This document shows, piece by piece, positions 3,136 to 25,695 of a stretch of DNA of 39,123 bases. The position numbers and the translations under genes were made by a program. How positions within the stretch are numbered: the first letter of the stretch is position 1; every line of letters begins with the position of its first letter. The stretch lies in NCBI GenBank assembly GCA_004377365.1, contig SOHZ01000392.1:1-39123 (forward strand), read 5' to 3'. The notes below the pieces were generated by a model. The model was not told the DNA's origin. It worked only from the letters and a program-made list of their open reading frames with translations, and made no database searches. This stretch comes from Anaerolineales bacterium (GTDB taxonomy: Bacteria > Chloroflexota > Anaerolineae > E26-bin7).

Positions 3136-3182
3136 CGGATCAGCCTGTAGCGTAACAGGGTCTGTAAAAACAACTCTCTGTT

Positions 3183-3255
3183 TCCGGCTGGATTGCAAAT
3201 CCAGCCGCCAGACCGCCGGATTGCAAATCCGGCGGGAGCGGAAGTGTTCTTTTAC
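3183..3255. repeat. Palindromic repeat family A (double hairpin), intergenic copy
   Basis: CCGGCTGGATTGCAAATCCAGCCGCCAGACCGCCGGATTGCAAATCCGGCGGGAGCGGAAGTGTTC; nearly identical to 25600-25667. Confidence 0.9.
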
Positions 3256-3260
3256 AGGCC

Positions 3261-11816: not shown

Positions 11817-14182
11817 TGGTCACCTTGTCCGTCCGTGTTGACTTGATACTCTGTCTGACCCTCTGCCACCTGCTTCTCCAACAGTCCTACTTTGCCTCGT
11901 TCCGCAACCTCTCTTGAGATTGCCTCCCCCGCCGCAAGGCCCTGGTAGGCCCTTTCCACGTCCTCTCTGGTCACCCAGATCGGGCCGGTCACCCGGCGCC
12001 GTTTCTGAGCCAGGACACGATTGATGGTCGCCAGACAGATTTGCTGGATGCGGAAAGGTTTGTGCTCACTGTACTGCAAGATCAACTCGATAGCATCCTT
12101 GTCGTAGCGATAGATTCCCTTGACCGGCTCCTGGATCAGGCGAAGGGCTTCGTCTAAGGTGAAGGGAGGCAAATGTTTCTCTATGGCGAAGAGGTTGTAC
12201 CAGGGGCTGGTACCTAACTTCCACTCTCTATCAATGGACAGGCCTGACCAAATCATCCTCAGGTGTTGTCCGGCTTTGGACATCAAAACGCGCCGTAGCC
12301 GCGCCTGCACTTTTGGATCGTACTCGTTCAATTCGTCGCCCTCGTCCAGGAGCAACACCAGCCTGAGCTGTTTGTCCGTGGTCGCCTTCAGGGCTTCCAG
12401 CACCATCTCCAGATCGTCCACCAAATCGTAGACGTCATAGCCCTCCTTTTTGGTGGCATAGATCAAATCTAGCGAGCCGATATGGGGTCGGCAACTCCTG
12501 GCGATAACGCTCATCAGGGTGTAGAAAAGTCTTTCAGCAGGTACGCCTTGAAGGCTGACGAAGGCGGGGATGAAGAGATACTGCGGATCCTCCGCCTCGC
12601 GCAGCCTGTTGTCCAACTGGTGCAAGAACGAGGTCTTGCCAATGCGTCGTTCGCCGTAGATGGCGACGTGGTTATTGTGGATGGTATCCAGCACCTCGGC
12701 CAACGCCTCTTCCCGCCCGAAAAACATATCTGGCTCGCGGACGGGAAGGCCGGAGAGGTAAGGATTAAATTTGCGCTTGATGGCCTGGCGAATGCGGTGA
12801 CTGGCTTGCCAGTGAGAGATAGAGATTGCGGCCAACACCAAGAGCAGAGTCGCCAAGAGGCCCAACAAACCGTAAACCTGAATCGGTGACGGTAGGATGG
12901 TGATTCGGGCGTGGGCTGGCTCGGAGTAATTAAAGTCCATGTCCCTGGCCTGGACGACAAAGGTATAGGTGCCGGATGGTAAGTCGAAATACCGGGCTGT
13001 TTCCTGAAATGGTTCTGTCGTAACCTGCCAATCCGGGTCGTGTCCTTCCAGTTTATAAACATAACGCAAGTCCTCGCGGTCGGTCTTCAAGTCGCCACTG
13101 GCGAACTCGAAGGTAATGTCCCGCTGGCTATAGGGCAGGGTGATCTGACCGGTTGAAGTATATACCTGCCCGCCAGTGGTGATAAGATTTAGGTAGACTA
13201 TGATGGGTGGAGCAGTGCCCACGATGTGGCGGCTAATCCCATCATTGGTGCCAAACCAGAGAGCGCCCTCGCCATTTTGCAGGATGGCCTCAACATCGTT
13301 GTCCGCCAGGCCGCTGTTCTCAGTAGTGAGGGTCTGCCAACTGACCCCGTCGTAGCGGCTTACCCCACCTGAGGTACCGAACCAGAGGTTGCCTTCGCTG
13401 TCTTGCAGGATGGCCCCAACATCGTTACGCGCCAGGCCGCTGTTCTCGGTGGTGAAGCTCTGCCAACTGGCCCCGTCGTAGCGGCTTACCCCACCCCCCC
13501 AGGTACCGAACCAGAGGTGGCCTTCGCCGTCTTGCAGGATGGCCCACACATCGTTGTCCGCCAGGCCGCTGTTCTCGGTGGTAAAGCTCTGCCAACTGAC
13601 CCCGTCGTAGCGGCTTACCCCACCTTCCCGGGTGCCAAACCAGAGGTTGCCTTCGCGGTCTTGCAGAATGGCCCGGACAGCGTTGAGCGCCAGGCCGCTG
13701 TTCTCGGGGGTGAAGCTCTGCCAACTGGCCCCGTCGTAGCGGCTTACCCCCCAACCTGTACCGAACCAGAGGTCGCCTTCGCCGTCTTGCAGGATGACCT
13801 GAACAACGTTGGCCGCCAGGCTGCTGTTCTCGGTGGTGAAGCTCTGCCAACTGGCCCCGTCGTAGCGGCTTACACCTCCAAAGGAGGTGCCACCAAACCA
13901 GAGGTTGCCTTCGCTGTCTTGCAGGATGGCCTGAACAACGTTGTGCGCCAGGCCGCTGTTCCAGGTATTGAAAGTACGCCAGGGACTATAGCCGCCCTGG
14001 GCCTGGGCAGGCGGAGCGACGGAGAGGAGAAGGAGTGGGATGAGGAGGGCGAGGGGGAGTGCAGCAGACAGTACAACGGACGGGAGAATTAAACGGACTC
14101 TTTCTGCGGCCTGTCCGTTGAATTCTTTTGTCCGTTGTACTCTCTCCCACAGCCTTCCGATCCCTTCCCCCCTACCCCTCAT
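11813..14182 (-). CDS. Transmembrane sensor-ATPase: signal segment, six propeller repeats, Y_Y_Y-like domain, TM helix, cytoplasmic AAA/STAND ATPase
   Basis: Repeats of 'ILQDxEGxLWFGTxxGGVSRYDGxSWQSFTTENSGLA'; TFVVQARDMDFNYSEPA; TM VYGLLGLLATLLLVLAAISI; MFFGREEALAEVLDTIHNNHVAIYGERRIGKTSFLHQL. Confidence 0.85.
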   Translation of the reverse strand: MRGRGEGIGRLWERVQRTKEFNGQAAERVRLILPSVVLSAALPLALLIPLLLLSVAPPAQAQGGYSPWRTFNTWNSGLAHNVVQAILQDSEGNLWFGGTSFGGVSRYDGASWQSFTTENSSLAANVVQVILQDGEGDLWFGTGWGVSRYDGASWQSFTPENSGLALNAVRAILQDREGNLWFGTREGGVSRYDGVSWQSFTTENSGLADNDVWAILQDGEGHLWFGTWGGGVSRYDGASWQSFTTENSGLARNDVGAILQDSEGNLWFGTSGGVSRYDGVSWQTLTTENSGLADNDVEAILQNGEGALWFGTNDGISRHIVGTAPPIIVYLNLITTGGQVYTSTGQITLPYSQRDITFEFASGDLKTDREDLRYVYKLEGHDPDWQVTTEPFQETARYFDLPSGTYTFVVQARDMDFNYSEPAHARITILPSPIQVYGLLGLLATLLLVLAAISISHWQASHRIRQAIKRKFNPYLSGLPVREPDMFFGREEALAEVLDTIHNNHVAIYGERRIGKTSFLHQLDNRLREAEDPQYLFIPAFVSLQGVPAERLFYTLMSVIARSCRPHIGSLDLIYATKKEGYDVYDLVDDLEMVLEALKATTDKQLRLVLLLDEGDELNEYDPKVQARLRRVLMSKAGQHLRMIWSGLSIDREWKLGTSPWYNLFAIEKHLPPFTLDEALRLIQEPVKGIYRYDKDAIELILQYSEHKPFRIQQICLATINRVLAQKRRRVTGPIWVTREDVERAYQGLAAGEAISREVAERGKVGLLEKQVAEGQTEYQVNTDGQGDQ
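13250..13990. repeat. Tandem approx. 120-126 bp coding repeats (propeller blades)
   Basis: Recurring 'CTTGCAGGATGGCC...CGCCAGGCCGCTGTTCTCGGTGGTGAAGCTCTGCCAACTGGCCCCGTCGTAGCGGCTTACCCC', about six copies. Confidence 0.9.
14070..14141. repeat. Nested inverted repeat (long hairpin) at the N-terminal coding region
   Basis: AGTACAACGGAC (14070-14081) vs GTCCGTTGTACT (14130-14141), perfect 12 bp; inner GAATTAAACGGAC vs GTCCGTTGAATTC with one mismatch. Confidence 0.85.
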
Positions 14183-16060: not shown

Positions 16061-18505
16061 TCAGGGCTCTGACACCTGCACAGTGCCCAACAGAAGATGG
16101 CTATCACTCACCCCCTGGTCACCTGTATCTAAAGCCAATCGCTCACCATTGGCCAGCCGATACAGCCCCGTGACGATCTGGTATTCGCCTGGCGGCGTGT
16201 CAGGCCTGAGGACGATTTCATGCTCGTCCACTATCACCTCACCTTCGTCCCAAAAACAGGTCGGATAGAAGCCTCCCTCAGGCTGGCCATCGTGCTGCCC
16301 CCACAGTCGGCCATCCTCACCCACCACGTGCACGAAAACGGTATAGTCCTCGCCGACCGGCTCCCTGGCCTGCCAATACAGTTTCAGGCGAATGACATCG
16401 CCCGGTTTGGTCGCTGCCGGGTCCAGGTCGTAGCCCAATAGAGAGATGCTATCACCAAAGGTGGCCGCCAGGGAGTGTTGGGGGGAAAGGCTTTCCTCAT
16501 CACCCATGACCTTCAGGTAATCCAGAACCAGCGTGTCGCCCTGAGGGCGGCCTTCCTCATCCAGCACGGGCAGGCGCTCCAGAGTGGAGGGTTCGTACCA
16601 ACCGACCTCCAGGCGGTAGCGGCCCGGGGGAGCATCGGTGGGGATTGCGATCTCGCGCCCATCCCATACCTCAACCCCAGTCGGCCATTGGCTGGTAGGA
16701 AAGAGGCCATTGACAGACTGACCGTCTTCCTGCCACGTGAAAGCATCTCCTTTATCGGCCAGGCGCACGAAGATACTGTAATTCTCCGTCAGAGGCTGCC
16801 AGGCCTGCCAGAAGAGGGAAAACGGCACGACTCCTCCAGGACGCGCCTCAACCGCATCGAGTTGATAGCCGAGGAACTCTATCTTGTCAGCCAAATTCGC
16901 CCGCCGCGATCTGTGGATGGGAGGGGAGGAAAAGTCCTGTGCCAGGAAAGCGATGACTCCTTGCCTCTCGTAGACCGCTTCCATCTCCTGACGCACAAAG
17001 CGAATGAAATCCGGGTAGTATTGTTGGTGGAACCTTCCCTCGTCAACGACCAGCCACACCCGGCGATTCTCGGCCAGAACCGGCATCAATTGTCCAACTG
17101 AGTTGACTAGCGTGGACCCCGTCCAGTTGTCAACCGGGGCCCCATCCACGATCATCAGATGCTCTCTGTAAGTTACCTGGTTGGCGTAGTAGTCGCAATC
17201 ACCCAGGTAGACGCAGCCGATGGCGGGGAGGATCATCACCAGGATGTCCCCCTCCTGCCAGTGTTCCTCTACATAGCCGAAAGCCCGATCATAAGCTGGC
17301 TCGGGCTGAGTGGCTGCCGCCATGGCGGCGGGCAGGGTGTAGCCGCCTGCGATAAGCGCTATCAAAAGCCAGGCCGCCAGCCTCAGTTCCTCCCGCCTCT
17401 CCCACGTCTTCCACCGGCGCAGGTGCTGACCTATCCAAGCCAAGCCCCGAGCCAAGGTGCCCGCTGCCAGCAAGAAGTAGACGGGCAACAGCAGGAAGAG
17501 ATAGCGAGGTCGGCGCCACGTCTCGCCAACCAGCAGGAAAACCTCAGCCATAACCCCGCAGAAGGTCACGTAGCAGAAGATCAAAGCTGCGTTCTGGCCC
17601 TGAAAATCGGCTACCCTCTTTGACAGTTGCTTGCTGCTCGATGGAAGAAGTGGCAAGAGAAGATAGACGAAGCCCAGGAGGAAGAGCAGGGTCAGAGGCA
17701 GATAAGGCCAGAGCCAGAAGAACTCTCTAAAGAAGAAGCCAGATTTCAGCCCCCAGCCCAGGGAAAGCTCGAGGAAGGGCCGTTCGCCAGCGCTAGTCAG
17801 TGGCCCAGCTATGAGACCGAGCGCAAAGGTTGTCAAGGCCCCCGCCCCACTCAGGAAGAGAGGCCCCAGGACCCCCGGCTTGAAGAACCACCTCCACCCC
17901 CGTCTGACCAGGATGGCCAGAAGGAGAGGAAGGAACAGCAAAACTGTAGTCGTCTGGCTGAAGAGGGCAGCGATAAAAAAGAGGGCGAAAAGGTAGCGGG
18001 GTCGGTCATCGTCGCCGCCGATGAATCCTTCGTAGAAGTAACAAAGAGCCAGGATGACGGCAAGCTGTTGCAGAGCGTACATCCGGGCTCGCCCGCTCCA
18101 GACGATGGCCTCGGGGCTGAAAGCCAGGAGAGCAGCAGCCAGCAAACCCACGCCCCTGGAAAACATTCTCTTGCCCAGCAGATAGATCAGGGGAACGGAA
18201 AAGAGGCCAATAAGCAAGCTGGGCAGCCTGGCCACCCCTTCACTGGAGCCGAACAGGTAGATGAAAAGGGCATCAAGATAAGAGAAGAGAACCCCCGGCA
18301 GATAGATGAAACCTGAAGGCAGCAAGGGATACCCATGCTCCATGATTTTCTGGGCTGCCCATACAGTCAGGTACTCATCCACGTGGGGGCTGACTGTCGT
18401 CAAGTAGGTCAGTCGGAAATAGGCCCCGACGCCCATCAGGACCACGATAACGACAGCGATGCCCTTTCTCCCATCCGTCAGGTCCTTGATTTTACCCAAC
18501 ATCAA
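16061..18505 (-). CDS. GT39-like membrane glycosyltransferase with two C-terminal 'LLGYDL...FWQA/YWQA' modules
   Basis: YLTTVSPHVDEYLTVWAAQ; ALLAFSPEAIVWSGRARMYALQQL; modules begin ANLADKIEFLGYQLD and ATFGDSISLLGYDLD. Confidence 0.83.
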   Translation of the reverse strand: MMLGKIKDLTDGRKGIAVVIVVLMGVGAYFRLTYLTTVSPHVDEYLTVWAAQKIMEHGYPLLPSGFIYLPGVLFSYLDALFIYLFGSSEGVARLPSLLIGLFSVPLIYLLGKRMFSRGVGLLAAALLAFSPEAIVWSGRARMYALQQLAVILALCYFYEGFIGGDDDRPRYLFALFFIAALFSQTTTVLLFLPLLLAILVRRGWRWFFKPGVLGPLFLSGAGALTTFALGLIAGPLTSAGERPFLELSLGWGLKSGFFFREFFWLWPYLPLTLLFLLGFVYLLLPLLPSSSKQLSKRVADFQGQNAALIFCYVTFCGVMAEVFLLVGETWRRPRYLFLLLPVYFLLAAGTLARGLAWIGQHLRRWKTWERREELRLAAWLLIALIAGGYTLPAAMAAATQPEPAYDRAFGYVEEHWQEGDILVMILPAIGCVYLGDCDYYANQVTYREHLMIVDGAPVDNWTGSTLVNSVGQLMPVLAENRRVWLVVDEGRFHQQYYPDFIRFVRQEMEAVYERQGVIAFLAQDFSSPPIHRSRRANLADKIEFLGYQLDAVEARPGGVVPFSLFWQAWQPLTENYSIFVRLADKGDAFTWQEDGQSVNGLFPTSQWPTGVEVWDGREIAIPTDAPPGRYRLEVGWYEPSTLERLPVLDEEGRPQGDTLVLDYLKVMGDEESLSPQHSLAATFGDSISLLGYDLDPAATKPGDVIRLKLYWQAREPVGEDYTVFVHVVGEDGRLWGQHDGQPEGGFYPTCFWDEGEVIVDEHEIVLRPDTPPGEYQIVTGLYRLANGERLALDTGDQGVSDSHLLLGTVQVSEP

Positions 18506-20916
18506 CCCGAATCCCCGTCGGCTGCCAGCAACTCTATTCGCTGGAAGAGCACACTCAGGCAGCGCCTATCTTTGGAACCCGCCTCGACCTCGGCCGGCAC
18601 CTCACAACCCTCAGCCACTCGAAAGACGATGTCGTTCTGACCTTTCGCCAGAGTGAAAGACGGTGTAACAAACTCTTGCCAGTTCGCGACCTCGAAATCG
18701 GCCACCGCTTGGCCATTGACCGTGACCTGCAAGTGCCGAGGTTCTCGGAAGGGATAGGCGGCGAAACGCAGGCGATAGCGGCCTTTGGTCAGGCGGTGGA
18801 CGTACAGAATGCCTTCATCTTTCAGCCAGCGGGCCGGGTGGCCGTCGGCGTCCTCGACCTGGTACCAGCCATAGCTCAGAGCCAGCAGACCCTCCTCCTT
18901 CCCTCCAATCTCGATCTCGGGCACGAGGAAAGCCGCCAGCCGTTGGTCATCGTAGAAGGGTTCGCCCAGCAGGCGGCCAAGGGCGGCCAGCGTCTCCGCG
19001 TCTTCCTCAGCAGTCCACACCTCCTTGTGCAGGATCACGTACCGGATGTGGTAACGGTTCAAAGCTTGCAGGGCTTCTTCTGGTGAGGAGCGCGGGATCA
19101 TATCCTCCGTCACCGGGGGCAGGACCAACTCTTGAAGGGCCTTCATGCCACCTTCCAAGCCCTCCGGCAAGCGCCAGACGTAGCCCCCCACGATTTTATG
19201 TTGGTGCACGGTCTGATAGTACATGGCCCGGTTGGAGGCCTCCCGCAACCAGATGGGCCATTGGGGCAGGTCCAGCACAGCAAAATCCCCGGGCTCCTGA
19301 GCCATGCGCTGATAAAAGCCAGGCACGCTAGCTTCCATGGCCGGGAAAGGCCAGGCAACCACACAGTCAAAGAGGATGAGCACAGAAAGGACGGTTATCA
19401 GCCACCCTTGCGAAGGTTTTCGCAACCTTCGCAAGGGTTCCAGCAGAGATGCGATGCCCAAACTGGCCAGGACGGCAAGGGGCAACACGATGGTCTCGTT
19501 GGCACGTCCTGGAATGCGCCCCCATTTGTAGAAAGGCAAGCGCTGCAACAGGGCATAGGGCAGCGGCAAGCTGGTTTGCAAACCGCCTATCTTGAGAACG
19601 GGGCCCAGCGATAGCAGCAGAGCCACCAGGCCCAGTATGAACCAGAAGCGGGCCTCTCTCCAGCGTCGCCTGGCTCCCCACCCGGCCAGGAGCAAAGCCA
19701 CCACCCCCAGATAGACCGTGCTCTCCAGCGTGTTGCCCCGCCCGATGACCGCCGCTGCCCAGGTCCGGAAGGAGGGCCATCGTCCCCAGACAGGGTGCGA
19801 GAGCGCGGGAGTGAAAAAGCCCGAGAGATCGGCCGAATAGTCCACCGTGCCGGCCATGTGCAAGTAGCTCAGTTGCCCGCTCAGGGAGCGCCAGGCAAAG
19901 GGCAAAAGAAAGGGAGCAGTGAGCATCGCCGCAAACGCAAAGGCTGCAACAATATGTAAGGGACTGCCGGTCAGTTTCGCCCGACCACATTCTTGCTCGC
20001 GGCGGATTTGTAATCCGCCGCCTGGCCGCTGGATTGCAAATCCAGCCGGAGCGATCTGTAATCTGCCAAGTTTCACCCTCTTGCTAGGAAGGCTGCCTTT
20101 TTCCCCCTCCCTTAACTTCCCCACGGCGATGCGATAGAGGATGAGCAGAGCAGTGAAAGGTAGGATGAAATAAGCGACGTGAACGATGTTGACCAGCATA
20201 GAGAGCGCCAGAAGGATGCCACACAACCAGGCATTCCGCCAGCCCCCACCCCGGCCCTCCCTCCAGCCCCCTCTCTCTGGCACCCACCCCGGCCCTCCCC
20301 CAACTTTAGGGGAGGGAGTATGACAGCAGAGGAGTTTGATGAGATAGAGAGCGTAAAGAGGGAAGAAATAGGTCACTACCTGGGCCAGGTGAGCCGTGGC
20401 GTGGCTGAGGCGGTTGGGGAAGAAAGCAAAGACGAGGCCGCCAATGAAAGATGCCGACTTGTTCCTCGTCAGGTAATAACACAGGAGGTAGGTCGTCAGC
20501 CCCGTCAGGACAAAGGAGAGGAGAAGATGCAGATTGTAAGCCACCACCTGGCCGAAGAGCAATTGCAGGGGCAGGGCAACCACCTGGGGATAGGGAGTCA
20601 CCCAGAGCATGGGATGATAGGTGCCATCGGGATAGTAGAGATAGCTAGCCTGCGCCGGGCTGGTACCCAAATCCAGCAGGGCTTTCTCCGTCCACCACGA
20701 GATCCACAGATGCTGCAAAGCATCCTGATCCGGCGCGCCCGCCAACGCCGACCTCAACCGGAAGGCCACGGGATAGGTCACCACGACGGTGATCAGCGTG
20801 TAGGCCAGGATCACCCAAAGGATGCTTCGCCATTCGACCATCCCTTGGCTATTCAATTGCCGCCACCGTTTAGAGCCCAATCCCAGTTTCCTGCCTCCCC
20901 ACTCTCTAGTGAGCAT
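18502..20916 (-). CDS. Multi-pass membrane protein, putative glycosyltransferase-like; carries three repeat-derived in-frame segments
   Basis: YPVAFRLRSALAGAPDQDALQHLWISWWTEKALLD; multiple TM segments; 4-bp overlap with the downstream gene. Confidence 0.72.
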   Translation of the reverse strand: MLTREWGGRKLGLGSKRWRQLNSQGMVEWRSILWVILAYTLITVVVTYPVAFRLRSALAGAPDQDALQHLWISWWTEKALLDLGTSPAQASYLYYPDGTYHPMLWVTPYPQVVALPLQLLFGQVVAYNLHLLLSFVLTGLTTYLLCYYLTRNKSASFIGGLVFAFFPNRLSHATAHLAQVVTYFFPLYALYLIKLLCCHTPSPKVGGGPGWVPERGGWREGRGGGWRNAWLCGILLALSMLVNIVHVAYFILPFTALLILYRIAVGKLREGEKGSLPSKRVKLGRLQIAPAGFAIQRPGGGLQIRREQECGRAKLTGSPLHIVAAFAFAAMLTAPFLLPFAWRSLSGQLSYLHMAGTVDYSADLSGFFTPALSHPVWGRWPSFRTWAAAVIGRGNTLESTVYLGVVALLLAGWGARRRWREARFWFILGLVALLLSLGPVLKIGGLQTSLPLPYALLQRLPFYKWGRIPGRANETIVLPLAVLASLGIASLLEPLRRLRKPSQGWLITVLSVLILFDCVVAWPFPAMEASVPGFYQRMAQEPGDFAVLDLPQWPIWLREASNRAMYYQTVHQHKIVGGYVWRLPEGLEGGMKALQELVLPPVTEDMIPRSSPEEALQALNRYHIRYVILHKEVWTAEEDAETLAALGRLLGEPFYDDQRLAAFLVPEIEIGGKEEGLLALSYGWYQVEDADGHPARWLKDEGILYVHRLTKGRYRLRFAAYPFREPRHLQVTVNGQAVADFEVANWQEFVTPSFTLAKGQNDIVFRVAEGCEVPAEVEAGSKDRRCLSVLFQRIELLAADGDSG
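19405..19437. repeat. Perfect 14-bp inverted repeat inside a CDS
   Basis: CCCTTGCGAAGGTT-ttcgc-AACCTTCGCAAGGG. Confidence 0.92.
19991..20070. repeat. Palindromic repeat family A (double hairpin), in-frame copy
   Basis: TTGCTCGCGGCGGATTTGTAATCCGCCGCCTGGCCGCTGGATTGCAAATCCAGCCGGAGCGATCTGTAATC. Confidence 0.9.
20240..20320. repeat. C-rich repeat insertion in-frame in CDS
   Basis: 17-bp direct repeat CCCACCCCGGCCCTCCC at 20245-20261 and 20283-20299, followed by CTCCCCcaactttaGGGGAG. Confidence 0.75.
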
Positions 20917-25564: not shown

Positions 25565-25599
25565 AGTTGGAGAGAGCATCCCGTAGGGCTCACATTGCT

Positions 25600-25667
25600 C
25601 CGGCTGGATTTGTAATCCAGCCGCCGGACCGCCGGATTGCAAATCCGGCGGGAGCGGAAGTTGTTCC
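25600..25667. repeat. Palindromic repeat family A (double hairpin), intergenic copy
   Basis: CCGGCTGGATTTGTAATCCAGCCGCCGGACCGCCGGATTGCAAATCCGGCGGGAGCGGAAGTTGTTC. Confidence 0.92.
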
Positions 25668-25695
25668 TCCACGGACCCGTAGGCAATGTCAAACG

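Follow-up and report, generated by a model that had tools for sequence, protein, structure and literature searches.

An ISH3-type MITE candidate inserted in-frame in a multi-TM protein gene of an Anaerolineales bacterium

The palindromic repeat within a membrane protein gene of this Anaerolineales bacterium is very likely to be a non-autonomous ISH3-type MITE, which would have inserted in-frame with a 5-bp duplication and been kept where it is tolerated. The window, the whole stretch of 39,123 nucleotides that was analysed, is contig C645 of a 5.87-Mb genome in 676 contigs, a fragmented MAG with 7% contamination. The host gene lies on the reverse strand at 18502-20916 and encodes a multi-TM protein of 804 aa, its ORF being assigned to no family of Pfam or NCBIfam. 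The gene probably starts further downstream than 20916, as the orthologue of a sister species carries TAG at codon 9, and an AlphaFold model of the protein from 2 sequences had a pLDDT of 37 and was not usable. As noticed in the sequence-only reading, the palindrome lies in-frame inside this ORF and contains no stop in that frame, its reading being LGRLQIAPAGFAIQRPGGGLQIRREQECGRAK; LQIAPAGFAIQR is a segment of the peptide predicted from the insert. The interval proposed there, 19991-20070, does hold the repeat but misses its left end, the full unit being 19977-20069.

The 80-nt palindrome is confirmed as the core of a complete MITE. Using a covariance model (R1) and a scan for terminal inverted repeats (TIRs) and target site duplications (TSDs), the element was placed at 19977-20069 on the reverse strand, with a length of 93 bp when the outer T/A of the TIRs are included and of 91 bp (19978-20068) by the 5-bp-repeat convention. 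It is bounded by identical direct repeats, AGTTT at 19973-19977 and at 20069-20073 (AAACT in the gene's sense), which are of the ANNNT target type. In the gene's sense the element runs TTGGCAGATTACAG...GAATGTGGTCGGGCGA. The ends of the unit are inverted repeats of about 13 bp, TCAGTAGATCACA...TGTGATCTACTGA, enclosing two inner hairpins, GGCGGATTTGTAATCCGCC at 20001-20019 and one with the core GCTGGATTGCAAATCCAGC at 20028-20047, which represent helices 4 and 3, respectively, of the covarying structure. In the window copy the two TIRs are worn, with 5 and 4 mismatches over 13 positions, and this copy, which itself belongs to the model, matched R1 over its full length with 89.1 bits and E = 4.1e-19.

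Evidence for insertion comes from the sister species G001 (JAOZOT01, an Anaerolineae MAG), the only same-genus genome compared, in which the orthologue of the host gene has 87-90% identity over the aligned stretches. This orthologue is without the element and is shorter by exactly 96 bp, or 32 codons, at the insertion point, and 96 bp is the element plus the duplication. The nucleotide junction reads GGGTGAAAC/CCACTGGCC in G001 against GGGTGAAAC/TTGGCAG...GGGCGAAAC/TGACCGGC in the window, and the protein junction KRVKPTGRPL against KRVK-(32 aa)-LTGSPL. The earlier proposal of a mobile palindrome inserted in-frame between TM helices is thereby borne out: the closest homologue without the repeat is not of equal length but shorter by exactly that piece of 32 residues. 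Because direct repeats flank the element, a gain in the window species would seem the better explanation than a loss in G001. In distant homologues the insertion site corresponds to a short, variable loop between two hydrophobic segments, a loop that would be cytoplasmic. In one distant homologue (L064, G012:C92) this inter-helix loop contains an unusual long insert of its own, GSNPLPCLQPVQTGEGRGGGS.

The insertion might also be an assembly artefact, or an inconsequential event in a dying gene, given that the genome is a MAG of 676 contigs with 7% contamination and that a gap of Ns interrupts the G001 contig 5' of the insertion site. We regard this as extremely unlikely, since the empty-site segment is continuous 3' of the gap, direct repeats flank the element, the frame is kept and the pattern recurs in many contigs of two genomes. 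The host gene is also under purifying selection, with 114 synonymous against 64 non-synonymous codon differences from the sister species, differences of 49/26/116 at codon positions 1/2/3 (a third-position excess) and no stops in the segments compared between the two species. Two further repeats of the host gene were considered. A palindrome at 19408-19440 was rejected as another insertion, a near-identical sequence being present in the sister gene, and at 20236-20320 a G-rich repeat is read as PSPKVGGGPGWVPERGGWREGRGGG; the repeat stretch found at this place in the sister gene is longer and different.

Many related copies are present in both genomes. In the 5.87-Mb genome there are 131 occurrences of the core GGATTNNNAATCC and none of its reversed control; G001 has 93 occurrences of the core, and a 73-nt query matched about 40 places in the host genome. 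In some 100 stretches fetched from the two genomes, TIR pairs concentrate at exactly 93 bp and shuffled TIRs yielded 0 pairs. Thirty-nine distinct full-length copies were collected, 32 of them 93 bp long, one 91 bp and six 112-142 bp, the last with extra sequence, mostly palindromes, within a hairpin loop. Identical 5-bp ANNNT repeats are found at 22/39 copies (control offsets, 0/39). The inner 3 bp of the flanking repeats are identical at 28/39 (control, 1). For copies with >5 TIR mismatches, including the window copy, a matching 3-bp repeat was a condition of entry into the set of 39. Like other MITEs, the elements are short, carry no transposase gene, end in TIRs, are flanked by a target site duplication and have empty sites.

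Subfamilies have very different inner hairpins (GGATTTGCAATCC, GGACCACAGTCC, GGATCTGGCGATCC, GGATTGCCAAATCC, GGCTCCCACGCC), and in 14 aligned copies a cloverleaf is kept that consists of the TIR stem, a GCTC/GAGC stem and two hairpins. In this alignment 91.7% of cells are paired, against 25-40% for slid partners, and double-sided changes number 19, compared with 6.4 in shuffles. A longer or shorter hairpin is compensated by the right spacer, interiors of 56, 58 or 60 nt being combined with spacers of 20, 18 or 16 nt. The covariation of paired positions, together with the stable fold of the window copy (z = -4.9), could be taken to indicate a selected regulatory or RNA structure, such as a terminator or riboregulator, located in the gene by chance. 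There is scarcely any likelihood of this, since no Rfam match and no terminator or promoter pattern were found, the orthologue is without the insert and copies occur in unrelated genes and in both orientations; arm-to-arm covariation of hairpins is, moreover, equally expected in palindromic transposons.

As another rival, the repeat could be REP/BIME-like and owe its mobility to a RAYT (Y1) transposase, in which case the twin GGATTNNNAATCC hairpins would be the mobile part and the outer inverted repeats incidental. Consistent with this, the twin-hairpin core within GCTC..GAGC also has other outer ends (window 3161-3258 and 25580-25675; L136, L140, L141), and REP-type palindromes are nested in the hairpin loops of some copies. 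REP/BIME elements are moved by RAYT and are not known for a TIR/TSD signature, or for fixed-length target duplications with TIRs at fixed spacing. Here the TIRs and ANNNT repeats are exact and agree with ISH3, and cores with completely different hairpins still show the same TIRs and the 93-bp length, which makes a REP/RAYT origin quite improbable. The related twin-hairpin element at 3161-3258 and 25580-25675 of the window has its inner module in common with the ISH3-type MITE but differs in its ends (GGGTCTGTAAAAGAATAACTTC...). Other REP-like palindromes were seen in the hairpin loops of MITE copies at L018 2029-2141, L019, L034, L021, L110, L104, L043 and L107.

The assignment to ISH3 follows from the ends. 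The TIR, the target repeat and the flanking A/T agree with those of ISH3-family IS that are intact in related genomes. These were sought with NF033541, most of the transposases scoring below the equivalog cut-off of that model. General DDE_Tnp_1 transposases, considered as movers, had no matching ends, except for an ISH3-like one in G056 with the ends TCAGTACTTCCCG, which prompted the search for ISH3. The ISH3 element of G183 is 1259 bp long, carries TCAGTACATCACG at each end and has A-GAT-T repeats; that of G021 is 1309 bp with ends as in G183, A-GTA-T repeats and one stop in the transposase frame; and that of G058 is 1289 bp long, carries TCAGTAGATCCAA at each end and has repeats that are unlike. 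An ISH3 fragment in G021 adjoins an exact TCAGTAGATCACA. The MITEs of G086 end in TCAGTACATCACA and those of G218 in TCAGTAGATCCAA, the same as the ISH3 element of G058. The ends are thus shared with autonomous ISH3 elements, but in genomes other than the host. A search of both host assemblies (G000 and G001) gave no ISH3 transposase, so that it is the relatives that suggest mobilisation in trans by an ISH3-type transposase. Next to isolated TIRs in G018, G056, G063 and G086 there was no transposase. In G086 (C100; L218 1-950) what appears by eye to be an IS5-like transposase gene lies directly against the right-hand portion of a MITE copy whose TIR is TCAGTAGATCCAA.

Across the class, the model matches relatives in 34 of 396 genomes. 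The same TIRs bound 93-bp elements in G018, G056 and G086, with one in G277, as well as elements of 84 bp in G063, 83 bp in G130 and 92 bp in G218. A length divisible by three was consequently rejected as a fixed property of the class, and since lengths vary between genera, the in-frame length is a property of the element of this lineage rather than a law.

Most copies are intergenic, and about a dozen lie in-frame in real genes, as established by a survey in which both strands and all frames were examined and domains checked. These occupy inter-helix loops, linkers or the stretch just before signal peptides. In a PEP synthase-like protein (L005) the copy lies between PPDK_N and the PEP-utilizer domain, and in a PDB search the insert region was not covered by the alignment. 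In a GNAT protein (L006), for which a PDB search gave no match, a homologue in G003 is without exactly query residues 105-136, or 32 aa. Other in-frame copies are found in an antiporter-like protein at a contig edge (L119), an alpha-2-macroglobulin-like protein (L122) and an FtsA-like protein (L124). In BcsB (L109), a DUF11 protein (L130), L126 and a LysM/M23 protein (L007 and L139) the copy lies, as judged by eye, just before the hydrophobic core of an apparent signal peptide. The LysM/M23 insertion is at the same position in both species, with the frame open and a length difference of 3 bp, and is therefore older than their split. L128 is an uncertain case with an ambiguous start codon.

A single codon phase is common to all in-frame copies, because TAG or TGA codons within the TIRs close the remaining two, and in most subfamilies the stop-free phase is open on both strands. 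By virtual excision and inspection by eye, with which decayed genes are hard to see, no genes clearly broken by an out-of-phase copy were found. The loci L034, L105, L125 and L132 were rejected as out-of-frame disruptions, since the genes that can be recognised by eye have their start or end next to the element. The window holds a second in-frame copy on the reverse strand at 2013-2075, in a DUF2079 gene, which is 63 bp long, internally deleted with the loss of one hairpin, and read as KLGSQIAPAGFVIRREQKRDLV. The loop concerned appears to be a hot spot for tolerated insertions. In the DUF2079 orthologue of G001 (C30:1043-3007, L184) a different, GTAG-type palindrome lies in-frame at the exact spot of the window copy.

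We propose that the transposase is of ISH3 type and would come in trans from an element absent from the assembly; it would cut at the TIRs, and the MITE would be joined into an ANNNT target in the gene with duplication of 5 bp. Element and duplication together would add 96 bp, so that the frame would be kept on insertion into a gene, and with one of the three codon phases free of stops, insertions in that phase would be survivable. They would be kept where 32 mostly polar, basic residues are harmless, such as loops between TM helices, interdomain linkers and the region before the hydrophobic core of signal peptides, the remaining insertions being removed by selection. The insert is predicted to be translated, and seems to be tolerated rather than beneficial. 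It is also conceivable, although we think it doubtful, that the element is adapted to coding, the 96-bp insertion length and a phase free of stops on both strands having been maintained while the hairpins were replaced several times. Such adaptation is unproven because most copies are intergenic and 93 bp is not universal. If true, copies that land in genes and contribute a harmless basic peptide would survive and give the element a refuge, and protein genes would be a regular habitat in the genus.

MITEs lying in-frame in ORFs are already known as RPE and as Coxiella QMITE (PMC5896051, PMC10969869). The RPEs of Rickettsia are about 150 bp long and form ten families (Ogata et al. 2000, reviewed in PMC10969869). 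The analogy drawn with them in the sequence-only reading holds for behaviour, both being small dispersed palindromic repeats, often in-frame in protein genes, that add peptide; it does not extend to identity, as the element here is 93 bp long, has its own ISH3-type ends and a 5-bp ANNNT duplication and is found in Anaerolineae, a distinction drawn against the description of RPEs rather than their sequence. QMITE1 and QMITE2 of Coxiella are likewise bacterial MITEs that are sometimes in-frame in ORFs, but they are longer (150-400 bp) with other direct repeats, and the named mid-ORF in-frame cases are hypothetical proteins (PMC5896051). With REP/BIME repeats, which are GTAG- and CGTC-tagged palindromes (PMC3733652), the element shares hairpins, here paired in inverted orientation. 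With ISH3 IS it shares the TIR type TCAGTA[GC]ATC.. and 5-bp ANNNT repeats (PMC2266710), intact copies being present in related genomes of the class, but it has no transposase gene and is 93 bp against about 1.3 kb. In 2008 the ISH3 family had so far been reported only from archaea (PMC2266710), and a search of open-licence literature gave no account of ISH3-type MITEs from Chloroflexota.

The spread of in-frame palindromes in proteins is best known from Rickettsia, and the same behaviour is now seen in Chloroflexota, with the addition of a related transposase family (ISH3), exact target duplications, empty sites and an insertion common to two species. The copies show that genes can accommodate such pieces between TM helices, in linkers and ahead of signal peptides. 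Whether selfish palindromes contribute segments to proteins, and whether these are retained or only tolerated, can be tested by ordinary reporter and transposition assays. The window contains two further repeats of other kinds: another MITE-like inverted repeat with 33-nt arms (GTACAACGGAC) at 14066-14145, found also in L025 near 2050, and six tandem repeats of 126-132 bp at 13247-13990, with a mutual identity of 81-91%.
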